Origin: Kiritimatiellota bacterium
GTDB lineage: Bacteria > Verrucomicrobiota > Kiritimatiellia > Kiritimatiellales > Tichowtungiaceae
NCBI GenBank assembly: GCA_014381785.1
Contig: JACNKZ010000084.1
Span: 1 to 36,544, forward strand
Direction: 5' to 3'
DNA: 36,544 nucleotides
In this document: in pieces, positions 4,232-26,424 of the stretch
Numbering within the stretch: position 1 is the first letter of the stretch
How the letters are laid out: each line of letters begins with the position of its first letter
Translations under genes and position numbers: made by a program
Notes under the pieces: generated by a model
The model's database searches: none
Told to the model about the DNA's origin: nothing
The model's input: only the letters and a program-made list of their open reading frames with translations

Positions 4232-4834
4232 ATGGGGCTCTTCGGAACAAAAAAAAGAACAATGGTCGTCAGTATTGACGCCATTTTGAAAAGCAAAGGC
4301 GCTCGCGGCAATGTCGCGCCCCGCCAGCAGCTGCAAATCCTGCGCTCACTTTCCCGTATAGTGCAGCGAGAAAAAATAAACATCACCGCAGTCGTTACGG
4401 GTAACCCCCTCAACAAAGCGCCGCACAACAAAAAGTTCGATGGTGTGCGTGTTCGCTATGCAAAAACCGATGATAAAATCGGCGCGCAACTGATTAAAGC
4501 GGTTAAACAGGCCGGATCCTCCGCTGTATTAGTGACCGAAGATGTCGCGCTTGAAAAAAAGGTGATTCGCGGCGGAACCGATACCCTGCGTATTTCCACT
4601 TTCCGCAAACTGCTTGACGACGGCGGTGATGCCGGCGGCGGACAGGGTGGCGGACAGGGTGGCGGACAGGGTGGCGGAAACCGGGATCGCAACAACAACG
4701 GCGGACGGAACAACAATCGTCGTGACCGTGACCGCGGCCCGCGGCCTGAGCGCAAAAAGCAGCGCCAGCCCAAGCCTGAAAAACGGGATGAGGAGCAGGA
4801 CGAAATCAGCCAGATGATTGATCTGGTGGATTAA
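4232..4834 (+). CDS. NYN/PIN-like domain protein with Gly/Arg-rich tail
   Basis: A 200-residue protein. Residues 1-130 look like a compact Rossmann-type nuclease fold of the NYN/YacP kind: a beta strand ending in an Asp (MVVSIDAIL), a central Asp pair (AKTDDKIGAQLI) and a strand with acidic end (AVLVTEDVALEKK). Residues 131-200 are low complexity: four GGGQ units, then Arg/Asn-rich and Lys/Pro-rich stretches, ending in an acidic helix. The Gly units come from a 12-bp tandem DNA repeat at about 4630-4679. Such tails often bind RNA, so an RNA-processing role is plausible, but the fold call rests on pattern only. Start chosen from AAGGAAG seven bases before ATG. It converges on hpt, with an inverted repeat between them. 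Confidence 0.75.
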   Translation: MGLFGTKKRTMVVSIDAILKSKGARGNVAPRQQLQILRSLSRIVQREKINITAVVTGNPLNKAPHNKKFDGVRVRYAKTDDKIGAQLIKAVKQAGSSAVLVTEDVALEKKVIRGGTDTLRISTFRKLLDDGGDAGGGQGGGQGGGQGGGNRDRNNNGGRNNNRRDRDRGPRPERKKQRQPKPEKRDEEQDEISQMIDLVD

Positions 4835-13770: not shown

Positions 13771-15459
13771 TTACTTCTCGCCGACGATGACTTCAGCGAT
13801 GTTGAGCGCGTGATCTTTCATGCGGCGGTAATTGTTGAGGATGTCGGTATAGACCAGACTGCTGAGTGAGGAAACCTTGTGTTCGGCCAGTCGTGACAGG
13901 TGCTGCTGACGATAATTTTTCATGGTGCGTGTGATTTCTCCGCTGTTCGCGATGAGGTCGTCTGCGGCCTGTTCATCTTCGGTGAGGACTGCGCGGTTGA
14001 TTTTCTGAATGTATTCCAGCACCTGCTGGTTCAGGTCGATAAATTCCTGAATTCCTTCGGGAGCCAGCTCCAGATTGTTGTCGCGCAGTTTGCAAAGGCC
14101 CTTGAGAACGGAGGCCGCGTAGTCGCTGATCGATTCATACTCGTCGGCCATGCGCATTTGACGGCGGGAGGTTTCCATTACTTCATGAGGAACCTGGCCG
14201 CTGATCAGTTCGCCGAGGAAAACCATGATTTCCTTCTGCACGTTATCGAGGATCTCTTCGCGTTTGAAAATTTTCGACTCAAGGATGTCATCCACTTTGT
14301 CGGCTTTAAGCACCATGTCCAGCTTCTCAAGCATCAGCTCAACGCTTTCGCCCATAAACTGGATCTGTTTGCCGGACTGCACGATGCCGAGTGCCGGCGT
14401 ATCGAGCATGCGCACATCGAGGTAGGTGAGGTGCGAAACTTCTTCCACGCCTTTATCGGGAACCATTTTGGTGACCAGTTTGGCGAGCAGGCCGACGAAC
14501 GGCAGGAAGATCAGCGAGTTGGTCACGTTAAAGCCGGTGTGCACCATGGCAATGGCGGCCATGATGTGCGGGAAGCTTTCCTCTCCGCCGTCAAGCACAA
14601 CCATCATGTTCGGGTCGCCGCCGATAAGTTTTCCAATGATTGGAAAGTAGAGGGGCAGGGCAATGGCGGTGATCCAGACCACCCCGATCAGGTTGAAGAC
14701 AATATGGGCGTAGGCCGCGCGCCGGGCGTTGGTGGAGGTGCCGAGCGAGGCGAGGAAGGCGGTAACGGTGGTTCCGATATTTTCGCCGAGCACCAGCGCG
14801 CCAGCGGTCTCAAAGTTGATTAATCCCTGACTCGCCATCCCCATGGTGATTCCCAGCGTTGCGGAGGAGGATTGCACGATCATGGTCAGCACGCAGCCAA
14901 CCAGCGCGCATTTGAGGACGCCGAGGTAGGAGGTGGCCTGAAATGCGTGGAACCACTCCACAAATTCCGGCAGAGAGCGTAAGGGCTTAAAACCGCTGCT
15001 CATCATTTCCAGACCATAAAAGATCATGCCGATCCCCATGATGGTCATGCCGGTGTAGCGCAAGCGCTCGTTTTTCGAGAAGAGGAAGAAGAAGGCGGCC
15101 ACGGCAAGCATCGGCAGGCCGTATTTGCCGATTTTTAGCGTTAGTAGCCAGCCGGTGATCGTGGTGCCGATATTCGCGCCGAAGATGACGCCGATGGCTT
15201 GTGTGAGCGTCATGATCGAGCTGTTAACCAGTCCGACGACCATCACCGTGGTGACGGAGCTGGACTGGACGATACAGGTGACCATCAATCCGACCAGCAG
15301 ACCCATCACACGGCGGTCGGTGATTTTACTGATGATTTTGCGTAACCGGTCTCCGGCAACCGCCTGCATTCCTTCCGACATATATTTCATACCGAGCAGG
15401 AAGATGGCCAATCCGCCAATCACTTCCACCACGATGGAAAATAAAAGCTCTGTGTTCAA
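13771..15459 (-). CDS. Na/Pi cotransporter family protein with PhoU-like domain
   Basis: A 562-residue inner-membrane protein of the Na/Pi cotransporter (NptA/YjbB) type. Two inverted Na_Pi_cotrans units carry the QSSS signatures (CIVQSSSVTTVMVVG and MIVQSSSATLGITMG) that form the transport site; residues about 340-562 are a helical cytoplasmic PhoU-like domain. It imports, or in some relatives exports, inorganic phosphate with Na+. The TTG start has AGAGGTGA six bases upstream. It is divergent from the porin gene, and the region between them carries PhoB-box-like repeats, so it is probably part of the same regulon. A perfect TTTCCAATGATTGGAAA palindrome lies in the gene at 14630-14646. Confidence 0.93.
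   Translation of the reverse strand: MNTELLFSIVVEVIGGLAIFLLGMKYMSEGMQAVAGDRLRKIISKITDRRVMGLLVGLMVTCIVQSSSVTTVMVVGLVNSSIMTLTQAIGVIFGANIGTTITGWLLTLKIGKYGLPMLAVAAFFFLFSKNERLRYTGMTIMGIGMIFYGLEMMSSGFKPLRSLPEFVEWFHAFQATSYLGVLKCALVGCVLTMIVQSSSATLGITMGMASQGLINFETAGALVLGENIGTTVTAFLASLGTSTNARRAAYAHIVFNLIGVVWITAIALPLYFPIIGKLIGGDPNMMVVLDGGEESFPHIMAAIAMVHTGFNVTNSLIFLPFVGLLAKLVTKMVPDKGVEEVSHLTYLDVRMLDTPALGIVQSGKQIQFMGESVELMLEKLDMVLKADKVDDILESKIFKREEILDNVQKEIMVFLGELISGQVPHEVMETSRRQMRMADEYESISDYAASVLKGLCKLRDNNLELAPEGIQEFIDLNQQVLEYIQKINRAVLTEDEQAADDLIANSGEITRTMKNYRQQHLSRLAEHKVSSLSSLVYTDILNNYRRMKDHALNIAEVIVGEK
14629..14646. repeat. TTTTCCAA-type palindrome inside the Na/Pi gene
   Basis: Perfect TTTCCAAT-G-ATTGGAAA, read on the minus strand as FPIIGK: a third reading frame compared with FSNVWK and FQCLEK in other genes. 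Confidence 0.8.
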
Positions 15460-15526: not shown

Positions 15527-15566
15527 TTAGTCAATTTCTAGCATTCCACTAACAAAAGCCTAACAA
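15527..15566. promoter_or_regulatory. Putative PhoB boxes, Na/Pi - porin region
   Basis: Four 7-bp units exactly 11 bp apart: TTAGTCA (15527), CTAGCAT (15538), CTAACAA (15549), CTAACAA (15560), with 4-bp spacers. This is the geometry of E. coli PhoB boxes (7+4 bp). They lie between the divergent Na/Pi transporter and porin genes. Confidence 0.65.
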
Positions 15567-15692
15567 TTTCCCAATAGGTTGTGCGCATGTTTTTAACGGA
15601 ACACATATGTTAGGGGAACAGTTCCGAAACAGTACCGCATGGCGGCAGGTGCCGCTGGCGGCGAGTAACCCTGAAAAAGGAGAAAAAAGACC

Positions 15693-16892
15693 ATGAAAAG
15701 AGTATTCATTACCGTAGCGGCACTTTTGATTGCCGCGGCAGCTCAGGCACAGGAGCCGACTGTTGCGGATCTGCAAAAGCAGCTGCAGGAGTTGTCGGCC
15801 AAAATCGCAAAGCTGGAAGCGCAGCAGGCGGCTCTGCCCGTAGCGGCCGCTCCGTCCGGCGATCTCGCCGCCCGCCTCGCAAAGCTCGAAGCCAAACCGT
15901 CTGTTCCGCAGTGGGCGCTCGACACCAAAATCAAAGGCGACTTCCGCTACCGGTACGAGAACGTCGACCGGGCTGACGCGACCTACAAAGATCGTCAGCG
16001 CGTCCGCCTTCGTGTCGGTGCCTATGGCAAAGTGAATGACTCTGTCGACTACGGCATCCGTCTGGCCACCGGCGGTTCCAGCGCGACATCCGCGAATCAG
16101 GACATCGACGGTGGAACCAAAAAAGAGATCATGCTCGACCGCTACTACGTCGACCTGCACCCCGAAATGTTCAAAGGCGCCCACCTCATCATGGGTAAAA
16201 TGGCTCAGCCGTGGGTGGCCCGTACAGGACTCATCTGGGATGGCGACCTCAATCCGGAAGGTTTTGCGCTGACCTATGCAAACACCTACAGCAACGGCGT
16301 GAAGCTCATTGCCAATGCCGGCAGCTTCGTCCTGAAAGAGGATAAAGGCGACGACCTGCAGCTGTGGGCTGGACAGATCGCGGCGGAAACCAAAGTCGGC
16401 GGCGTTACTGTGCTGACAGGCGTCAGCGATTTCTATTATCAGAACGCCGGCGACCAGGGTGCCGGTAACGGCCTGACGTCCGGGATGAATAACACCGTCG
16501 GAACGGAATTCCATCTTGTGGAAGGGTTCGGTTCTGTGGGAACAAAAATCGGCGACCTTCCGGTTGCTTTCAACGGACAGTATGTGATGAACGTCGCCGC
16601 GGAAAGCAGTGATGCATCCGCCTATCTGCTTGGCGTCAAATTCGGTAAAGCCAAAGCCAAAGGCGAATGGGAAGCCGGTTATAACTACCGCGACACCGGT
16701 GCCGATGCGGTTCCGGACGGATTCAACGACTCCGACTTCGCCTACGGCTCCACCGCCTCGCACGGACACGCCTTCTGGGCCAAATACCAGATCGCCAAAA
16801 ACCTGCAAGGGGGCGCAACCTATCTAATGGCGGTTGATAATAACGGCGATGACGTCAACACCATGCAGCTCGACCTGAACTTCAAGTTTTAG
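15693..16892 (+). CDS. Putative outer-membrane porin of the phosphate island
   Basis: A 399-residue protein with a signal peptide (MKRVFITVAALLIAAAAQAQ), a short N-terminal coiled coil (residues about 24-70, LQKQLQELSAKIAKLEAQQ) and a long beta-rich region with alternating aromatic and polar residues, ending in LDLNFKF with the terminal Phe typical of outer-membrane barrels. It resembles the Porin_5-type putative porins. AAAGGAG lies upstream of the ATG. Its place between the Na/Pi transporter and pstS, and the PhoB-like boxes upstream, suggest uptake of phosphate across the outer membrane; specificity is inference. Confidence 0.9.
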   Translation: MKRVFITVAALLIAAAAQAQEPTVADLQKQLQELSAKIAKLEAQQAALPVAAAPSGDLAARLAKLEAKPSVPQWALDTKIKGDFRYRYENVDRADATYKDRQRVRLRVGAYGKVNDSVDYGIRLATGGSSATSANQDIDGGTKKEIMLDRYYVDLHPEMFKGAHLIMGKMAQPWVARTGLIWDGDLNPEGFALTYANTYSNGVKLIANAGSFVLKEDKGDDLQLWAGQIAAETKVGGVTVLTGVSDFYYQNAGDQGAGNGLTSGMNNTVGTEFHLVEGFGSVGTKIGDLPVAFNGQYVMNVAAESSDASAYLLGVKFGKAKAKGEWEAGYNYRDTGADAVPDGFNDSDFAYGSTASHGHAFWAKYQIAKNLQGGATYLMAVDNNGDDVNTMQLDLNFKF

Positions 16893-17185
16893 TCTGCATT
16901 TGCCGCTTCGCTGCTGTCTCTTTAAGCCAGCCTCACTTTGTGTCTCACCAAAACACGGGAAGCACGAAGTCCGAAAGACCCAGGCACGAAAGAAGCACGA
17001 ATGTTTAAAGGCTCAAAATCAAAAACAACGACAACGGGTTGCTGTTTGATCCAAAAGCATACGGTTTCTGCGTTCGGGTTTTTAAAGTTTGATGTGGTTT
17101 CGGATCTGATCACCCCCGCAGGTCTCCGGTTTAATCCGGAGGCCTGTTTTTTATGCTCTGCGCCCCGTACTCTTTTCACGCGTTT
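16893..17185. other. Porin-pstS intergenic region
   Basis: Non-coding. 16938-17005 holds a degenerate CACGAA-type repeat (GAAGCACGAA, GGCACGAAAGAAGCACGAA). A terminator follows at 17119-17153 and the pstS promoter after that. The 85-codon frames on both strands are repeat-derived. Confidence 0.6.
17119..17153 (+). terminator. Rho-independent terminator after the porin gene
   Basis: Stem AGGTCTCCGG (17120-17129) with CCGGAGGCCT (17136-17145), one G-T pair, loop TTTAAT, then GTTTTTT. It lies 230 bases after the porin stop. Confidence 0.85.
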
Positions 17186-17217
17186 CTAATGAGAGCTTAA
17201 CAATCCCCTAATATAAT
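17186..17217 (+). promoter_or_regulatory. Putative PhoB boxes and -10 of pstS
   Basis: Units CTAATGA (17186), TTAACAA (17197) and CTAATAT (17208) at 11-bp spacing; TATAAT at 17212-17217 fits a -10 element eight bases after the second unit. A -35 box is not needed at Pho promoters. Confidence 0.6.
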
Positions 17218-17324
17218 TCCCTCATATTTCTTCCCGTACACGGTGGAAGCCGGAGCATGAAGGCGAAAGGAAAGACCTTCGGTCCGGGTTCTGCCAAACC
17301 AGAATAAAGAAAATGGAGAAATAA

Positions 17325-18143
17325 ATGAAAAAAGCAATTCTCAGTATCGCTCTCATGGCCGCGGTCGCGGTGACCGCTGTTGCGGAAGAGACAATCGTTA
17401 TCGACGGTTCCACCACCGTTGGCCCGATCGCCAAAGCCTTCGCCGAATACTTCATGGCGGAAAATCCCGACGTCAACATCACGGTCAGCGAATCCGGCAG
17501 CGGCAACGGTGCCAAAAGCCTCGTTAATGCGGTGTGTGATGTCGCAGCCATGTCCCGCCCGATGAAAGACAACGAATTTCTGGCCGCAGCCGAAAAGGGC
17601 ATCCAGCCGGTTGCCCATGTTGTGGCGCTCGACGGTCTGCCGATTCTCGTTCACCCGAAAAATCCGGTCGCCAATCTGACCATCGATCAGATCCGTAAAA
17701 TCTACACTGGCGAAATCACCAACTGGAAAGAAGTCGGCGGGCCGGACATGGAAATTGTCGTCATCACCCGCGACACCAACAGCGGAACCTACGAAACCTT
17801 CGAAAAACTTATCATGAGCAAGCAGAGGATTTCCGACAAAGCGGAATATGTCGGCAGCAACGGTGCCATCCGCCAGCGCGTGCAGAGCACCCCGGCCGCC
17901 ATCGGCTACGCCGGACTCGGCTTCGTCGACAAAACCGTCAAAGCGATCACCGTCAACGGTGTCTATCCGTCCGCTGCTACCGTCCGCACCGGCGAATACG
18001 CCATTGCCCGCCCGCTGTTCATGTACACCAACGGCTATCCAAAACTCGGTTCCGCGGTTTACCAGTTCGTCACCCTCTACCTGACCGAAGACGGACAGGA
18101 AATGGTCGAAGAAATCGGTTTCATCCCGGTCACCAGCTACTAA
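17325..18143 (+). CDS. pstS: Phosphate ABC transporter substrate-binding protein
   Basis: Periplasmic phosphate receptor for the PstCAB permease. Signal peptide MKKAILSIALMAAVAVTAVA. The phosphate-binding motifs are visible: DGSTTVGPIAKAFAE (Ser/Thr of the first loop), SGSGNGAKSLVN, and RDTNSGTYETF (Arg and Ser/Gly/Thr of the second loop). Length (272 residues) is typical of the short PstS type. GGAGA precedes the ATG. It is separated from pstCAB by rtcB on the other strand, so it is its own unit, with a strong terminator downstream and PhoB-like boxes upstream. Confidence 0.96.
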   Translation: MKKAILSIALMAAVAVTAVAEETIVIDGSTTVGPIAKAFAEYFMAENPDVNITVSESGSGNGAKSLVNAVCDVAAMSRPMKDNEFLAAAEKGIQPVAHVVALDGLPILVHPKNPVANLTIDQIRKIYTGEITNWKEVGGPDMEIVVITRDTNSGTYETFEKLIMSKQRISDKAEYVGSNGAIRQRVQSTPAAIGYAGLGFVDKTVKAITVNGVYPSAATVRTGEYAIARPLFMYTNGYPKLGSAVYQFVTLYLTEDGQEMVEEIGFIPVTSY

Positions 18144-18206
18144 GAATGGAGTAAAGGAGCGGTGGAGGCGTGGTGAGGTGCCACGCTTCACTCTACATCT
18201 CGAAGG

Positions 18207-18240
18207 CGCGGGTTTTCCAATGGTTGGGAAACCCGCGTTT
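18207..18240 (+). terminator. Rho-independent terminator of pstS
   Basis: Stem CGCGGGTTTTCC/GGGAAACCCGCG around an AATGGTT loop, then a T-rich tail (GTTTCTTTCT). The stem is built on a TTTTCCAA-type palindrome, showing one way these repeats are used. Confidence 0.85.
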
Positions 18241-18439
18241 CTTTCTGTGATCGCCGCCGCCTTGGCGAGGGAGGTAGCGACGGAGGGTTCCAAACCTTGA
18301 AAAAAACTTCACAATCGGTCGAAGTCATCTGCACTTATCTGTGCCTGCCCGGCGAAGCCGGGTGATCTGCGGATAGAAAATATTTCATTTCCCAAAATCG
18401 CGATTTCGGCCTTCAGAATTTCAAATGCCGGACACGGGT
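18241..18439. other. pstS-rtcB intergenic repeats
   Basis: No gene. Holds a degenerate CCGCCTTGGCGA palindrome (about 18251-18281), a TTCCAA-type site (18288-18306) and a CCCGGC-GAA-GCCGGG hairpin (18348-18362) inside an ATCTGTG...ATCTGCGGATAG repeat. Confidence 0.5.
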
Positions 18440-19540
18440 CTATGCCTTGATGTTGATGATCGGCGTGATATGGCGGCAGACCTCGACGAGGTCGGATTGT
18501 AGCCGCATGACTTCAAAGATGTCTTTGTAGGCGAAGGGCGATTCATCGAGTGTCCGCGCATCGACCCGGGCGGTGATTCCCTGCATGGTTTCGCGGAATT
18601 CGGCGGGATCCAGGCTTCGCAGGGCCTGCTTGCGGCCCATCACCCGGCCCGCGCCGTGTGCGCTCGACCAGAGCGCGGCGGGATTGCCTTTGCCGCACAC
18701 AATAAAGGAGCCGTCGCGCATATTGCCGGGGACGACCCCCAGCATGCCTTTTTCGGCATGGGTTGCGCCTTTACGGTGAATCCACAACCCCTCTTTTTCT
18801 TCGGCGTGGTTGTGGTTGCGGTTAATCAGACGGCTCCAGTCGGCTTCGCCGGGGGTGTGCTGCGCAAGCGCCGCAACGACCCGCCGCATGATTTCTTTAC
18901 GGTTTGCAAGCGCCAGCTCCAGAGTCCAGTTCATGTCATTGATGTAGGCCCGGCCGGCGTCGCTGTCGGTGCGGAAGCCGAAATGGCCCTCGCTGGCTCT
19001 GCCGGTTCCGGAGGCCATCCGCATGTATTCCGTGGCAATGCCGTGCCCGACGCCGCGGCTGCCCGAATGGAGAATCACCCAGGCCTGCCCGGTTTCGTCC
19101 TGACCGATTTCGATGAAATGGTTTCCGCCGCCCAGGGTCCCGATGACGCGGAAGCCTTTGCGCTGGTTGAAGGCCTTGCGGCCGATGGGAGTGAGATCAT
19201 CCGGGTTGAGGGCGCATTCGACCGGACGGGTGTTCACATCAAACCCGACGGGGATCCGTTTGTAGATGTCCTGAAAAATCGCGCGGCTGTTTGTTCGGAT
19301 TTCCTCTGCGCTGAAGGAGGTGGGCAGGGCGCACATGCCGCACCCGATGTCGTAGCCGACCCACGACGGCAGAACAACGTCCTGCGTCGCGATGACGCCG
19401 CCGATCGGCAGGGTGTAGCCGACGTGGGCATCCGGCATCAGTGCGCCGGCCACGGAGAAGTCCTGCTCCATGGCGCTTCGGAACTGCTCCAGTGCTTTCG
19501 GATCCACTGCTTCGGCAAAAATCCGGGTCGGTTTGTTCAT
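18440..19540 (-). CDS. rtcB: RNA-splicing ligase RtcB
   Basis: GTP- and Mn-dependent ligase that joins RNA ends carrying 2',3'-cyclic phosphate or 3'-phosphate to 5'-OH. Visible hallmarks: metal-binding DIGCGM (Asp64, Cys67), GGGNHFIEIG, HSGSRGVGH, NRNHNHAE and the guanylated-His region SAHGAGRVMGR. The 366-residue length matches the short bacterial RtcB type. ATG 19540 is chosen because GGAGG lies seven bases upstream; a 23-codon upstream extension lacks a site. No archease, RtcA or RtcR gene is nearby. It interrupts the phosphate genes on the opposite strand. Confidence 0.96.
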   Translation of the reverse strand: MNKPTRIFAEAVDPKALEQFRSAMEQDFSVAGALMPDAHVGYTLPIGGVIATQDVVLPSWVGYDIGCGMCALPTSFSAEEIRTNSRAIFQDIYKRIPVGFDVNTRPVECALNPDDLTPIGRKAFNQRKGFRVIGTLGGGNHFIEIGQDETGQAWVILHSGSRGVGHGIATEYMRMASGTGRASEGHFGFRTDSDAGRAYINDMNWTLELALANRKEIMRRVVAALAQHTPGEADWSRLINRNHNHAEEKEGLWIHRKGATHAEKGMLGVVPGNMRDGSFIVCGKGNPAALWSSAHGAGRVMGRKQALRSLDPAEFRETMQGITARVDARTLDESPFAYKDIFEVMRLQSDLVEVCRHITPIINIKA

Positions 19541-19914
19541 GACGCACCTCCGCGAGGTTTGCAGGACTATACCATTTTCCGGATTCATTCCAGCAGTTGT
19601 TTGCGTCATTAGAAACTTCTGTGCGCCTTTGCGTGAGACATTTGTTCAACCCGTGGAATCTCTGCGGTTTATACGCTCTTTAGCGGCAAATAAAATTCCG
19701 AACCTTGGAAAAGTGATTAACCACAAACCACACGAACCACACGAAATTCAAAAATCGGATCAACAGTTCTCTTTAGGGTATTTGGTGCATTTCGCGGTTA
19801 GCCTGGTTGTCGGGGTGAAGCATTTTGACGGCCAGAGGGTTAAGCCCGCCCATTTCACGGGTTCCTAACAGAGCGCTAATCATTTCCTAACAAAAGAGCG
19901 GCATTCTCGGCCGC
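19541..19914. other. rtcB-pstC intergenic region
   Basis: No gene. Contains a TTCCGAACCTTGGAA site (19695-19712), an ACCACACGAACCACACGAA repeat (about 19726-19746) whose inverted relative (ATTTGGTGCATTTCGCGG) lies near 19779-19798, and the PhoB-like boxes of pstC at the right end. Confidence 0.6.
19865..19893 (+). promoter_or_regulatory. Putative PhoB boxes of the pst-pho operon
   Basis: CTAACAG (19865), CTAATCA (19876) and CTAACAA (19887) at exact 11-bp spacing. CATTCT at 19902-19907 is a possible -10 at the right distance. Confidence 0.68.
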
Positions 19915-21066
19915 ATGTTAGAAAACAGTTCAACCATTCAAAAGCGCAGCTTGGTGATGAGTAAGAGCACCAGCCGCTGGCGTCAGCTCTGGGCCGCACT
20001 GGGGCAGGGGTTCCTGTTTTCGGTGACGTCGCTCTCCACGCTGACCGTGTTTTTCATTTTCTACTTCATCGCCAAAGATGCGTTTCCGTTTTTCAAGCTG
20101 GAGGGCTTTAAGGAGTTCTTCACCTCGACCCACTGGTATCCGTCCGGCCATCCGGCCGAGTTCGGTGCAATGTCGATTTTTTTCGGAACCGGGCTGGTCA
20201 CGCTGGGCGCGGTCGTGGTGGCGGTTCCGCTCGGCGTGGCCGCGGCGGTCTGCCTGAGCGATGTGCTACCCTTCAACGTCCGGCAGATTGTGAAGCCGGT
20301 GATTGAAATTCTGGCGGCGATTCCGTCGGTGGCCTACGGGTTTTTCGCGCTGGTCGTGTTTGCACCGCTGCTGCAGAACAACGGCGGAGCGGTTCTTTCG
20401 ATCGGGGCCTGGCTGATCCTCGCGCCGATCCTCGCGCTGCTGGTTGTGGTGCTTAGCGATCTGATTGCCGACCGTTGTCCGGACGCCGCGCGCAAGGTTG
20501 TCCGATGGGGTTGCGGGCTGGCGCTCGGCGCTGCGGCATTGACCGGTATGATTCTGCTGGGCAATCATTTGCGCGGCATCGAAATCATCAGCGGAGCCAA
20601 CGCGCTGAATGTCTCCATCATTCTAGGTATTATGGCACTGCCGACGGTGGTGAGTGTCTCGGAAGATGCACTGCAGGCCTGCGGGCGCGAACTGCGCGAA
20701 GGCAGTTACGCACTCGGCGCAACTCGCGCTGAAACCATTGTGAAGACCGTTCTGCCGGCCTCCGTCAGCGGGATTCTCGCCGCGGTGATTCTCGGCGTGA
20801 TGCGTGCAATCGGCGAAACCATGGTGGTTTGGATGGCGTCCGGCAATGCCGCGCGTATTCCGGAGCCGTGGTTCAACATGCTGCAGCCGGTCCGGACCCT
20901 GACCGCCACGATTGCCGGGGATATGGGCGAGGCCGATCACGTGACCGGTTCGGCTCGCTTTCACGTGCTGTTCGCCATGGCGTTTTGTCTGCTGACCTTT
21001 TCATTTGTGATGAATCTCGCCAGCGAGGCCATCGTCCGCCGCTCACGCAAAAAACTTGGTAAATAG
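19915..21066 (+). CDS. pstC: Phosphate ABC transporter permease PstC
   Basis: Inner-membrane permease that pairs with PstA to form the phosphate channel. About six membrane segments; the EAA loop is ELREGSYALGATRAETIVKTVLP. At 383 residues it is longer than the usual 300-320; the extra length is at residues about 160-225, between membrane segments. ATG 19915 gives a 14-residue leader that lacks a ribosome site and lies right at the expected transcription start; ATG 19957 (MSKSTSRW) is a fair alternative. First gene of pstC-pstA-pstB-phoU-phoB-phoR. Confidence 0.94.
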   Translation: MLENSSTIQKRSLVMSKSTSRWRQLWAALGQGFLFSVTSLSTLTVFFIFYFIAKDAFPFFKLEGFKEFFTSTHWYPSGHPAEFGAMSIFFGTGLVTLGAVVVAVPLGVAAAVCLSDVLPFNVRQIVKPVIEILAAIPSVAYGFFALVVFAPLLQNNGGAVLSIGAWLILAPILALLVVVLSDLIADRCPDAARKVVRWGCGLALGAAALTGMILLGNHLRGIEIISGANALNVSIILGIMALPTVVSVSEDALQACGRELREGSYALGATRAETIVKTVLPASVSGILAAVILGVMRAIGETMVVWMASGNAARIPEPWFNMLQPVRTLTATIAGDMGEADHVTGSARFHVLFAMAFCLLTFSFVMNLASEAIVRRSRKKLGK

Positions 21067-22413
21067 ATGAGACTTGAAACCCGCAAATTGCTCGACCGCG
21101 CGTTTTCCGGAACCGGAGTGATCGCCATTGGCGTGATGGCTCTGGCGCTGGTGGTGATTCTTGCGCCGATTATCGGGAAGGGAACCGGCGCGTTTGTTTT
21201 CCGTTCCACCATCGAGCACCGCAAGGTGATGTTCGATCAGTGGGGGCGTGGCACCCCGGAACGGGTCGAAGCCGACAAGGCGCCAGCCGCCGCCGCGCGC
21301 CAGCCGGTTTATGACATGCTGGCAGCATTCGCGGCCGAACTGGACGAGATGCCGCGCGCGGACCGCCGGCCTTATAAAACGCCGGTGCGCGACCTGGAAA
21401 AAGCACTGGAGGAGCTGTTCGGCCCCGCGCCGGGTCAGCGCACGCCGGTGCTGATTCGTCAGCAGTACGGAGCCACCCGCTGGGATCGCACGAAAATCAA
21501 ACTGGGTGAGTTGCTGTTTACCGAGCAGTGGGACTACTCCAACCCCGATGCGCTCGGCGTGTTGGTGAAAACTCCGCGTTCTGAGCAGTTCAAAGAAACG
21601 TCGCTGGAGCCGCTGTTCGACTACGTAGACGAGAACATTGAAGCGATAATGCGTCCGCGCCTGACGTTCTACTGGCAGTTCCTGTTCGATACCTCCAAGG
21701 ACTCGCACATTTTCGGCGGCATCGGCCCCGAGGTGCTCGGTACGCTCTATCTGACTCTCGGCGCCATGATTTTCGCTATCCCCATGGGCGTGATTGCCGC
21801 CATCTACCTGTGCGAATACGCGCGGGAAGGGCGGGTGGTCAGTTTTCTGCGCATTTGCATCAGCACGCTCGCCGGCGTGCCGAGCATTGTGTTCGGTCTG
21901 TTCGGGTTGGCTTTCTTTTTGAATACGATTCACATTTCAGATTCCAAGAGCGTGCTGGCCGGTTCGCTGACCCTTTCGCTGCTGATTCTTCCGACGGTGA
22001 TCCGCGCCTCCGAGGAGGCGATTCTGGCGGTGCCGAAAGCCTATAAAGAAGCAGCGCTGAGTCTCGGCGCCGGACGCTGGCACACGGTGCTGACGGTGAT
22101 TCTTCCGGCCGCGCTGCCGGGGATTCTGACCGGAGTGGTCATCAGCATGGGCCGCGCCGCCGGCGAAACCGCGCCGATCATTTTCACCGCCGCGGTCAGC
22201 GTCGGACGCCCTCTGCTTCCGATGCAGACGCTGTCGCAGCCGACGCCCGCGCTGCCGTGGAATATTTATAATTTATGTACCGAGCATGAAGCGGTGGATG
22301 AAATCCGTCATGTTCAGTACGGAATGGTTTTTACTCTGGTGGCCCTGGTGCTGCTGCTGAATGTGTTCGCGATTGTGATGCGCGCACGGATTTCCAAGAA
22401 ACTCCGCGGATAA
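21067..22413 (+). CDS. pstA: Phosphate ABC transporter permease PstA, long form
   Basis: Partner permease of PstC. The C-terminal 240 residues are ordinary PstA (EAA loop [26 protein letters not shown], then [12 protein letters not shown]). Between membrane segment 1 (residues about 17-37) and segment 2 (about 223-245) there is a hydrophilic insertion of roughly 180 residues, predicted to be periplasmic. Usual PstA is about 280-300 residues; this is 448. The start codon directly follows the pstC stop, so translation is coupled. Confidence 0.94.
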
Positions 22414-22426
22414 GGAGACGGATCAG

Positions 22427-23248
22427 ATGAATGCAGAAATCAAAATGAAACAGGCAACCCGCTTTGCCGGGCAGAAGGAAAATGTTCTTTCCCGCCGCGC
22501 CCATGTGAAGGCGGAGGACTTTTCCGTATTCTACGGCAATTTCGAGGCGGTCAAACAGGTCCGCTGTGAATTCGCCGAAGGGCTGGTCACCTCGATGATC
22601 GGGCCGAGCGGCTGCGGGAAAAGCACGCTGCTGCGGGCCATCAACCGCATGAACGATCTGATTCCGTCCTGTCGTGCCGGCGGTACGATGACGTTCGACG
22701 GGGAGGATATTTACCGCAAGGATATTGATGTGGTTTCGCTGCGCATGCGCGTCGGCATGGTGTTTCAGAAGCCCAATGTGTTTCCGAAATCGATCTACGA
22801 CAACATTGCCTATGGCCCGCGCCTGCAGGGCATCAGCAACCGCAATCAATTGGATGGCATTGTGGAGTCGAGCCTGAAACAGGCCGCGATCTGGGACGAG
22901 GTGAAGGACCGACTTAACACCAACGCGCTCGGGATGTCCGGCGGACAGCAGCAGCGCCTGTGCCTGGCGCGTGCGCTGGCCGTGAAGCCGGAAATTCTGC
23001 TGATGGACGAGCCGACCTCGGCACTGGACCCAAAAGCCACCGCGAAAATTGAAGATTTGATCGGACAGCTTCGGGGGCAGTACACCATCATTATTGTGAC
23101 GCACAACATGCAGCAGGCCGCCCGTGTTTCCGACTTAACGGCCTTTATGTATGAGGGTACGCTGGTGGAGTTCGGCGAAACACGACAGATTTTCACCCGT
23201 CCGCAACAGAAACAGACAGAAGATTACATTACCGGCCGCTTTGGGTAG
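22427..23248 (+). CDS. pstB: Phosphate ABC transporter ATPase
   Basis: ATP-hydrolysing subunit of the Pst transporter. Walker [10 protein letters not shown] (residue about 59), Q-loop [14 protein letters not shown], signature [13 protein letters not shown], Walker [14 protein letters not shown] and H-loop [13 protein letters not shown] are all intact. The N-terminus has about 20 extra residues. AAGGAG lies upstream. Follows pstA by 13 bases. Confidence 0.97.
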
Positions 23249-23267: not shown

Positions 23268-23936
23268 ATGACAAAAGTATTCGTTCACGAAGTTGAAAAA
23301 CTGAAAAAAAGAATTCTTACTCTCAGCTCGCAGGTGGAGGAGAATGTGGCGCTAGCCGTTAAAGCGCTGGTTTCCCGCGATGCCGATCTGGCAAAGAAGG
23401 TGATTGCAAGCGATACAGAGATCGATCGACAGGAAGTGGAGGTGGAAGAGGAGGCGCTCAAGATTCTGGCGCTGTATCAGCCCGTTGCCATGGATCTGCG
23501 GTTTCTCACTGCCGTGCTGAAGATTAACAATGATCTGGAGCGCATCGGAGACCTTGCCGCCAATATCGCCAAGCGCGCGCGACGGATTTGTAAAGTGCCT
23601 GAGGTGGTTATTCCTCCGGAACTGGATCAAATGGCGGTGAAGGCCCGTGAGATGGTTCACAACAGTCTCACCGCCTTTGTGAATCTCGATGCCAATCTGG
23701 CTAATCAGGTTCGTGAAGCCGACGACGAAGTCGATGATCTCTGCAAAGTGGTGAGTGATTTTGTTGCCGCGGTTGGTCAAAAAGATCCGGAGCATTTAAG
23801 CACGTATCTAAAGATGCTGCTGGCCGCGCGCAACCTGGAACGAATCGGAGACCATGCAACCAACATCGCTGAAGATGTTGTCTATCTTATCGACGGCGTG
23901 ATCGTGCGCCACCAATCGCTCGACGAAGAGGATTAG
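23268..23936 (+). CDS. phoU: Phosphate signalling regulator PhoU
   Basis: Two tandem three-helix PhoU units; the metal-binding segments are NDLERIGDLAANIA (first) and RNLERIGDHATNIAED (second). It links PstB state to PhoR so that the regulon is off when phosphate is plentiful. Length 222 is typical. GAGGAG ribosome site ten bases upstream. Nineteen bases after pstB. Confidence 0.97.
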   Translation: MTKVFVHEVEKLKKRILTLSSQVEENVALAVKALVSRDADLAKKVIASDTEIDRQEVEVEEEALKILALYQPVAMDLRFLTAVLKINNDLERIGDLAANIAKRARRICKVPEVVIPPELDQMAVKAREMVHNSLTAFVNLDANLANQVREADDEVDDLCKVVSDFVAAVGQKDPEHLSTYLKMLLAARNLERIGDHATNIAEDVVYLIDGVIVRHQSLDEED

Positions 23937-23956: not shown

Positions 23957-24652
23957 ATGGCTTCGCAAAACATATTGATTATTGAGGATGAAGAGGACAT
24001 TCGCGAACTGGTTCGCTACAACCTCGAACGGGAGAAGTTTAAGGTGGATGAAGCCGCGTCCGGTGAAGAGGGGCTGAAAGTTGCCGCGCGCAGCAAGCCC
24101 GACCTGATTCTTCTCGACCTGATGCTGCCCGGCAAAGATGGAATGCAGGTTTGCCGCGAGCTCAAACAAAATGACGAAACCCGCGATATTCCCGTCGTCA
24201 TGATGACCGCCAAGGGAGAAGAGAGTGATATTATTGCCGGCCTTGAGCTCGGAGCAGAGGATTACATTGTCAAACCGTTCAGCCCCAAAGTGCTGGTCGC
24301 CCGTGTCAAAGCGGTTTTGCGTCGCAAGACCGCCGCGCCGCCGCTGTCGGATGAGGATGTGCTGAGTATTTATGATCTGTGCATTCATCCCGGCCGGCAT
24401 GAGGTGACCGTTAAAGGAAAGCCGGTCTCGCTCACCGCCAGTGAGTTCGGTGTGCTTCACTTTTTGGCCCGGCGGCCCGGCTGGGTTTTCACGCGCTATC
24501 AGATTGTCGATGCGGTTCACGGTGAAGATTATCCCGTCACGGAACGCTCCGTGGATGTGCAGATTGTCGGGGTGCGCAAGAAACTGGGGTCAGCCGGCGA
24601 ATACATTGAAACCGTCCGCGGCATCGGCTACCGGTTCAAGGATATGGACTGA
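23957..24652 (+). CDS. phoB: Phosphate regulon response regulator PhoB
   Basis: OmpR/PhoB-type regulator. Receiver domain with acid pocket Glu10-Asp11, phospho-acceptor Asp54 (LILLDLMLPGKDG) and Lys in YIVKPFSPK; winged-helix DNA-binding domain at residues about 130-228 (LTASEFGVLHFLARRPG, ERSVDVQIVGVRKKLG, ETVRGIGYRF). Its likely sites are the 11-bp-spaced CTAACAA units upstream of the phosphate genes. Overlaps phoR by one base (TGATG). Confidence 0.96.
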   Translation: MASQNILIIEDEEDIRELVRYNLEREKFKVDEAASGEEGLKVAARSKPDLILLDLMLPGKDGMQVCRELKQNDETRDIPVVMMTAKGEESDIIAGLELGAEDYIVKPFSPKVLVARVKAVLRRKTAAPPLSDEDVLSIYDLCIHPGRHEVTVKGKPVSLTASEFGVLHFLARRPGWVFTRYQIVDAVHGEDYPVTERSVDVQIVGVRKKLGSAGEYIETVRGIGYRFKDMD

Positions 24653-26424
24653 TGCACGCAAAACGCATTTTTTGGAAACTCTATCCCAGCTACCTGATTG
24701 TCACGTTGCTGTCTCTAACCGCCGTGTATGTTATCTCATCCACTGCAATCAATCGGTTCTTCGAACAGCAAATAGAGAAAAATCTAACGGAACAGGCCTG
24801 GTTGATTAAAGAGCAGGTGACCGCTCCGATGGTAACGCGTGAAATCGAAACCCTCAGTCGGTCCGCCGATACACTCAGCGCCAACTCGTCTGCCCGCATC
24901 ACACTGATTTTTCCCGACGGCATCGTGGCCGGTGATTCGGATAAGGCCAGCTCTGAAATGGGCAATCATCGCGACCGACCGGAAATCAAAGATGCGCTCG
25001 CAGGGCACGTCGGACAATCGCTGCGCTACAGCAACACACTGAAAAAAAACATGATGTATGTCGCGGTTCCGGTTTGGGTTGAGGGCCGGGTGATTGGAGT
25101 GGTCCGAACCTCCATGCCGATGACCGACATGGATCAGTTGATTGATTCCGTGCAGCACCGCATCACGTTCGGCGGACTGATCATCCTGTTTCTGGCCGCC
25201 GTGCTGAGCCTGATTGTTTCCCGGCGGATATCCCGTCCTCTTGAGCGCATTAAAGAGGGGGCCAAGCGGTTTGCCGACGGCGACTTTTCCTGTCGGCTGC
25301 ACACCATTGGATCCACAGAAATCACCTCCCTTGCCGAAACCATGAACCAAATGGCCGAACAGCTCGAAGACCGGCTACAAACCGTCATCAAGGAAAAGAA
25401 CCAGCGTGAGGCGGTTCTGTCCAGTATGGTTGAAGGCGTTCTGGCGGTGGATACCGACGGACACATCATCAGCCTCAATAAAGCCGCGGCGCGGTTTTTT
25501 CAGGTGATTCAGCCGGAAACCGCCAAAGGGCGCAGCATCGAAGAGGTCTTCCGGAACGTCAAACTGCAGAAATTCATCGGATCCGTTCTTAAAGGACAGG
25601 AAACCCTCGAGTGCGAGCTGACGGTTCAGCACAATGAGATTTATCACCTCCAGACCCGTGGCACCAACCTGCTGGGCGTGCAGGGCAAGCGCATCGGTGC
25701 TGTCGTTGTGTTTAACGATGTCTCCCGCCTGCGCCGCCTCGAAAACCTGCGCAGCGATTTTGTCGCCAATGTCTCGCACGAACTCAAAACCCCCATCACC
25801 TCCATCAAAGGCTTCATCGAAACGTTGCTCGACGGCGCAATGAACGATCCGGTCGAAGCGGATCGTTTTCTGAAAATTGTCGCCAAGCACGCCGACCGCT
25901 TAAATGCCATTATCGACGACCTGCTGATGCTCTCCCGGCTGGAGCAGGGCGGTAAAGAAGAGATGGAGATGCAGCAGGCCGGACTCGCCGGGTTGATGAG
26001 TTCCGCCGTCGAAGTTTGTGCTCATCGCGCCGAAAAAAAAGAGATCACCATTCAGGTCGAATGCCCCGACAACCTCTCTGCCAACGTCAACCCGCCACTG
26101 ATCGAACAGGCGCTGATCAACCTGATCGGCAACGCTGTTAAATACAGTGCGGAGGGAAAAACCGTTACCGTGCGCGCAGATCGCGAGCCGGATGGAATTA
26201 ACCTTTCAGTTACGGATCAGGGCTATGGTATTGCGTCCGAACATCTGGAACGGCTCTTTGAGCGCTTCTACCGCGTCGACAAAGGCCGTAGCCGCCAGGA
26301 GGGCGGCACCGGCCTCGGTCTCGCCATCGTCAAGCATATCGCGCAGGCCCACGGCGGAACCGTTTCGGTGAAAAGCACCTTTGGCAAAGGCTCCACCTTT
26401 TCCGTCTTTCTGCCAGCTTCTTGA
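24652..26424 (+). CDS. phoR: Phosphate sensor histidine kinase PhoR
   Basis: Inner-membrane sensor kinase, 590 residues: membrane segment at about 11-31, periplasmic sensor domain (about 32-170), second membrane segment (about 173-193), HAMP, a PAS domain (about 250-345), HisKA with the phosphorylated His376 (VSHELKTPITSIKGF) and HATPase_c with NLIGNAVKYS, DQGYGI and GGTGLGLAIVKH. The periplasmic loop is larger than in E. coli PhoR and resembles Firmicutes/Bacteroidetes types. Last gene of the operon; no terminator hairpin is obvious after it. Confidence 0.95.
   Translation: MHAKRIFWKLYPSYLIVTLLSLTAVYVISSTAINRFFEQQIEKNLTEQAWLIKEQVTAPMVTREIETLSRSADTLSANSSARITLIFPDGIVAGDSDKASSEMGNHRDRPEIKDALAGHVGQSLRYSNTLKKNMMYVAVPVWVEGRVIGVVRTSMPMTDMDQLIDSVQHRITFGGLIILFLAAVLSLIVSRRISRPLERIKEGAKRFADGDFSCRLHTIGSTEITSLAETMNQMAEQLEDRLQTVIKEKNQREAVLSSMVEGVLAVDTDGHIISLNKAAARFFQVIQPETAKGRSIEEVFRNVKLQKFIGSVLKGQETLECELTVQHNEIYHLQTRGTNLLGVQGKRIGAVVVFNDVSRLRRLENLRSDFVANVSHELKTPITSIKGFIETLLDGAMNDPVEADRFLKIVAKHADRLNAIIDDLLMLSRLEQGGKEEMEMQQAGLAGLMSSAVEVCAHRAEKKEITIQVECPDNLSANVNPPLIEQALINLIGNAVKYSAEGKTVTVRADREPDGINLSVTDQGYGIASEHLERLFERFYRVDKGRSRQEGGTGLGLAIVKHIAQAHGGTVSVKSTFGKGSTFSVFLPAS

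Follow-up and report, generated by a model that had tools for sequence, protein, structure and literature searches.

The phosphate-uptake cluster of a Kiritimatiellota bacterium carries, in front of its porin, pstS and pstC genes, three arrays of CTAAC-type units repeated every 11 bp, which very probably serve as operators for a PhoB-like regulator whose gene lies further downstream in the cluster. The cluster lies on contig JACNKZ010000084.1, and we refer to the 36,544 nucleotides analysed, contig C7 of a 2.2 Mb genome, as the window. The predicted PhoB binding rests on the units themselves, their period, their conservation, their enrichment, their offset to the -10 element, the association of the box with a class of recognition helix, and the presence of a complete pst-phoU-phoB-phoR cluster. 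The three operators are the following.

15527-15577, plus strand: porin-facing operator, with units at 15527 (TTAGTCA), 15538 (CTAGCAT), 15549 (CTAACAA), 15560 (CTAACAA) and 15571 (CCAATAG)
17175-17214, plus strand: pstS operator, with units at 17175 (TTCACGC), 17186 (CTAATGA), 17197 (TTAACAA) and 17208 (CTAATAT)
19854-19893, plus strand: operator of the pstC-pstA-pstB-phoU-phoB-phoR run, with units at 19854 (TTCACGG), 19865 (CTAACAG), 19876 (CTAATCA) and 19887 (CTAACAA)

The original prediction had listed ten units, four before the porin and three each before pstS and pstC, and all ten were present with neighbours exactly 11 bp apart within each array. Its consensus, CTAACAA, was found literally in three of the ten; the other seven differ from it, and the well-kept core is CTAAY. 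The count per promoter was likewise too low, since each operator contains at least one more in-phase unit: alignments of nine pstS, four pstC and seven porin promoters of the same genus revealed those at 17175, 19854 and 15571. In the same-genus loci boxes recur before pstS, the porin gene and pstC, with the box cores kept while linkers and flanks drift. pstC has its own box where pstS and pstC stand further apart (the window, L061 and L066), and no separate pstC box appeared among the matches listed for L143 and L064, in which pstS abuts pstC.

We then asked how specific the arrays are. The two-unit pattern CTAACAANNNNCTAACAA, with up to three mismatches, matched the window seven times, always within the three promoters, against 1.17 matches expected, and none of 100 shuffles reached seven. 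Genome-wide this pattern was not enriched (67 matches versus 206 for the reversed control) and was thus uninformative, so that three in-phase units were needed. The three-unit pattern gave nine matches in the whole genome versus four for its reversed control, and only four matches, two of them overlapping, had two mismatches or fewer, all in these three promoters. When scored with a model trained on other phyla, the three promoters ranked first among 73,032 positions (pstC 26.8 bits, the highest score in the window; porin 25.8; pstS 24.8), and none of 300 random windows reached their scores.

To follow the box beyond the genus, phoB relatives were drawn from a collection of 84,980 species; the best 80 loci were kept, 68 of which (L073-L140) lie outside the genus of the window. 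Removal of short and near-identical upstream regions reduced their number from 508 to 404, and the expectation-maximisation (EM) runs excluded 22 that had no PhoB class and 10 whose helices were unusual. A de novo EM search that made no use of the window motif, performed on 143 other-phylum upstream regions with the genus left out, returned as its best model an 11-bp-periodic tCTAACA with a log-likelihood ratio (LLR) of 517, whereas periods of 9, 10, 12 and 13 on the same regions gave 115-133. Applied to the 68 other-phylum loci, the model trained on the genus found 56 sites in the 40.4 kb of DNA upstream of phosphate genes versus 15 in 1,879 kb elsewhere, and its reversed version found one and four, respectively. 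Conversely, the model trained on other phyla detected 17 sites upstream versus one elsewhere in ten genus loci, all ten of which had a site. In the sister family the genus-trained model yielded seven sites in 6.8 kb upstream versus six in 397.6 kb elsewhere. Sites were present in, for example, Desulfuromonadales, Zixibacteria, Planctomycetota, Hydrogenedentota, Fermentibacteria, Bdellovibrionales, Calditrichota, Delongbacteria and Chitinispirillaceae. The enrichment before phosphate genes of relatives, by which the original prediction was to be judged, is therefore borne out. Its description of the boxes as divergent is right in that their bases differ from those of E. coli, but it does not denote a local change, since CTAAC goes with a PhoB clade that spans many phyla.

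The arrays also stand at a fixed distance from a putative -10 element. TANNNT-like hexamers peaked sharply at +15, counted from the C in the final CTAAC unit; at this offset matches to TATAAT averaged 3.24 of 6 positions for other-phylum sites and 3.38 for genus sites, compared with 0.6-2.2 at the other offsets examined; the peak was lower, 2.54, in Verrucomicrobiota sites from outside the genus. Both A2 and T6 were present at +15 in 86% of 21 genus sites and in 48% of the other-phylum sites, the latter percentage being taken over those of the 67 sites found that have tails of at least 40 bases. In the window this places the elements as follows.

15586-15591, plus strand: putative porin -10 element, CATGTT, 15 bp after the start of the unit at 15571 (alignment of seven promoters; +15 peak)
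17223-17228, plus strand: conserved -10-like element of pstS, CATATT in eight of nine aligned promoters and CACATT in the ninth
19902-19907, plus strand: putative pstC -10 element, CATTCT in three of four aligned promoters and CACCCT in one

A TATAAT had been proposed as the pstS -10 element. It is indeed present near 17211, but it shares bases with the last unit and lacks conservation, and CATATT takes its place. With the pstC -10 element at 19902, the ATG at 19915 would be too close to be a plausible start, and judging from this spacing PstC probably begins at the ATG at 19957, which fits better.

We then compared the boxes with the regulators that may read them. Alignment to PDB 1gxp placed the recognition helix of the window PhoB at TERSVDVQIVGVRKKL and that of E. 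coli at EDRTVDVHIRRLRKAL; a QIVGL-type helix occurs in nearly all other-phylum PhoB relatives. The position of interest is 201, which we take to contact DNA bases, in what we presume to be the E. coli residue numbering. Two models, one built from E. coli units and the other from units of the genus, assigned upstream regions to a class at a threshold of 13 bits and a margin of 3 bits. The genus and E. coli, on which the models had been trained, and regions without a PhoB class were left out, and the 10 unusual-helix regions were restored. Where PhoB has Arg at position 201, 11 of 80 regions (11 genomes) were classed as TGTCA and none as CTAAC; where it does not, 97 of 275 (65 genomes) were classed as CTAAC and none as TGTCA, the rest receiving no call in either group. 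Thus, as far as the sequences tell, the CTAAC box belongs to a PhoB clade without the recognition-helix Arg (R201 in E. coli) that accompanies TGTCA boxes. A single change accounts for the Arg label on a tree of 167 PhoBs, so several independent losses of Arg were rejected and the association counts as a single evolutionary contrast that leaves causation unproven. A role of His198 to Gln in the change at the fifth box position was also dropped, because three His-bearing PhoBs without Arg201 (L080, L123 and L132) still score as CTAAC (12.9, 18.2 and 12.0 bits), two of them barely. Verrucomicrobiota of the Arg class make a weak contrast set: a three-unit de novo search of 53 of their regions gave no convincing 11-bp motif (LLR 63 versus 95 for period 9 and 101 for period 12), and a two-unit search gave a TGTAACA-nnnn-TGAAAC pair before phoB in five of the 25 rows listed.

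Could the arrays be a product of chance or composition, with AT-rich upstream DNA giving rise to 11-bp repeats? The genome-wide two-unit counts, which fell below the reversed control, point that way, but the random windows, the upstream-versus-elsewhere counts with their reversed model, and the failure of every period except 11 in the EM runs rule this reading out, and we give it practically no weight. Another OmpR-family regulator might instead bind the arrays, the PhoB of the cluster using other sites. A second PhoB-like regulator is encoded in the genome (G000:C60:14674-15372, L144) and also occurs in L145, L068, L069, L070 and L071; it is 76% identical and shares the VDVQIVG helix core, and its gene is preceded, at about 70 bp, by a related but weaker box (11.0-15.8 bits in six genomes). 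No PhoR match was found beside this gene in the fetched stretches. Against its ownership of the arrays, the strongest sites are in the cluster that holds the PhoB-PhoR pair, and the same box precedes phoB, pstS and porin genes in other phyla, loci in which the second PhoB was not looked for; we consider this alternative quite improbable. Several observations nevertheless weigh against assigning the arrays to the PhoB of the cluster. With two nearly identical helices in the genome there are two candidate binders. At 14 bits the genus-trained model found a site in just 39 of the 68 other-phylum loci and in five of 12 sister-family loci. In addition, the window PhoB scores below the TIGR02154 cut-off (250.1 versus 296.2 bits), and no match above it was found in any of 144 Verrucomicrobiota genomes, so that the name PhoB is given by function and context.

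A further alternative accepts the operators and concerns only their register against the E. coli box. The original prediction equated CTAACAA with CTGTCAT, letter for letter, in which case the distance to the -10 element here would simply be 2 bp shorter than in E. coli. Two-unit EM served as a positive control: run on 30 upstream regions taken from E. coli and from 13 proteobacterial PhoB loci on plasmids, out of 45 matching records, it recovered TGTCACA with a period of 11 (LLR 103 versus 55 for period 10 and 61 for period 12). In 17 such sites the -10 peak was at +16 from T2, which is +17 from C1. The automatic extension to the last unit misplaced some proteobacterial sites, including that of E. 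coli pstS; read by eye from MG1655, the pstS, phoA and phoB promoters agree with +17, where pstS has its -10 element, TATTTT. Equal -10 distances in both classes align E. coli C1 T2 G3 T4 C5 A6 Y7 A8 with Y Y C T A A C A. Anchored in this manner, the unit is likely YYCTAACA, in register with CTGTCATA of E. coli, T4, A6, Y7 and A8 being kept and positions 3 and 5 differing. The 11-bp geometry is thus kept and the letters differ, as had been proposed, but the letter match appears to have been two bases off. Profile similarity cannot pick the register and favours neither consistently (1.38 for the original versus 1.21 for the shifted alignment in other phyla; 1.14 versus 1.32 in the genus). The TGTAACA boxes of Verrucomicrobiia, which look intermediate, speak for the two-base shift, and we consider the original register unlikely.

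The window operators thus combine direct repeats of 11-bp period with a position upstream of phosphate-uptake genes, where they are enriched in relatives, and with a fixed distance from the last unit to the -10 element, all of which mark a Pho box. They do not show the CTGTCAT core of the E. coli type with its G3 and C5, since 63 units of the genus have C3 and A5 at frequencies of 0.90 and 0.92. The E. coli box is given, in the accessible part of the source, as 11-bp direct repeats of CTGTCAT (PMC4415409); the arrays resemble it in period, orientation, pst targets, promoter-aligned -10 distance and the four kept bases, and differ at positions 3 and 5 (C and A here) and in the helix, HIRRL in E. 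coli and QIVGV here. For the cyanobacterial SphR box, the portion of PMC1906773 that describes it gives CTTAACCT, 8 bp plus a 3-bp spacer, which has in common with our units the 11-bp period, the TAAC core and the pst targets but usually has T, not C, before TAAC. According to the same text SphR, in contrast to the window PhoB, retains the residues that contact DNA in E. coli; that it would do so and yet read CTTAACCT counts against a simple one-residue rule. The motif obtained by DAP-seq for Riemerella PhoP, TTTAACA, which shares the TAACA core, was studied for pathogenicity and not as a phosphate regulon, and no tandem period is given for it, as far as the available section of PMC9603813 goes. 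The Desulfovibrio vulgaris PhoB box, (c/t)GT(n)AC in the excerpted account of PMC3333781 (6-bp repeats, 4-bp spacer), is likewise a tandem repeat upstream of pst genes with a TnAC core, but it keeps G at position 3. In sum, on the motifs compared, the geometry is textbook and the letters are nearer to the cyanobacterial and Riemerella TAAC-type motifs than to those of E. coli. We recognised no description of a CTAAC-type Pho box in the literature searched, in which most subscription papers fell outside coverage, so this is no proof of absence.

The genes around the operators form a complete phosphate cluster, in which an RtcB-like gene (18440-19552, minus strand) sits between pstS and pstC. 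The nearest named relatives of its PhoB are Kiritimatiellales/Pontiellaceae metagenome-assembled genomes.

13771-15459, minus strand: Na/Pi cotransporter with a C-terminal PhoU domain (PF02690, E 6e-64; PF01895)
15693-16892, plus strand: putative porin (PF16930, E 6e-36)
17325-18143, plus strand: PstS phosphate-binding protein (TIGR02136, 300 bits, above cut-off)
19915-21066, plus strand: PstC permease (TIGR02138, 252 bits, above cut-off)
21067-22413, plus strand: PstA permease (TIGR00974, 275 bits, above cut-off)
22427-23248, plus strand: PstB ATPase (TIGR00972, 404 bits, above cut-off)
23268-23936, plus strand: PhoU (TIGR02135, 205 bits, above cut-off)
23957-24652, plus strand: PhoB-like response regulator (best match TIGR02154, 250.1 bits; cut-off 296.2; aligned to PDB 1gxp)
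24652-26424, plus strand: PhoR/PnpS-type sensor kinase (NF046044 PnpS, 413.7 bits, above the cut-off of 400)

Upstream of pstB, phoU and phoB the best box scores were below zero, so that phoB and phoR have no box of their own and, lying downstream of pstC, would be autoregulated through the pstC operator. A second, minus-strand promoter for the Na/Pi gene was considered too weak to claim: overlapping minus-strand CTAR units scored 7.3, 11.5, 5.4 and 1.5 bits in four loci and were absent from L143, which scored 2.0 bits and at another position. Elsewhere, a gene whose product combines a weak PHP match at its N terminus with a GT4 glycosyltransferase domain is preceded in two species by a good CTAAC box at 49-60 bp (L144:1551-3944 and L145:6529-8919, both minus strand; 19.6 and 22.2 bits), the box of its L156 homologue being weak (12.6 bits); we would guess that it possibly has a role in phosphate-sparing lipid remodelling. 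A 17-bit box also lies 50 bp before a 578-aa open reading frame (ORF) at L144:11422-13158 (minus strand), for which Pfam and NCBIfam gave no confident match. The plasmid-borne proteobacterial pst-phoU-phoB clusters (L312, L313, L316, L317 and L319) often adjoin arsenic-resistance genes, and the window ORF at 4232-4834 encodes GGQ-rich repeats with a tail that is Arg/Asn-rich and then charged.

Regulators of the OmpR/PhoB family bind direct repeats as tandem dimers, according to the accessible parts of two reports (PMC4832192, PMC4415409). By analogy, phosphorylated PhoB would bind head-to-tail, each 11-bp unit, roughly a turn of DNA, taking up a single DNA-binding domain, and would recruit RNA polymerase to the -10 element located 15 bp downstream of where the last CTAAC unit starts. 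A promoter with three or more units would accommodate at least one dimer and further subunits, the last of them positioned to contact the polymerase. PhoB would in this manner switch on the porin gene, pstS and, via the pstC promoter, pstCAB-phoU-phoB-phoR. Binding, activation, phosphate control and a causal role of the Arg are all inferred from sequence here. More tentatively, and as a reading that we hold to be less likely than not, the PhoB family may fall into two DNA-recognition classes, Arg201 helices reading TGTCA or TGTAAC and a large group of non-Arg helices (usually Gln198-Val200-Gly201) reading CTAAC in many phyla. The altered helix would then itself be the cause of the altered bases at positions 3 and 5, with no shift in tandem spacing or in the geometry towards the polymerase.

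For the bacteria concerned, these results mean that scans with an E. coli matrix would miss Pho regulons in Kiritimatiellota, Planctomycetota, Zixibacteria, Desulfuromonadales and other phyla, and that a CTAAC matrix together with a -10 element at +15 would make such regulons predictable from sequence. If the helix change is indeed the cause, exchanging two or three helix residues should exchange operator preference. The two classes also offer a natural test of how the recognition helix of an OmpR-family regulator sets the letters of its DNA site at fixed spacing.

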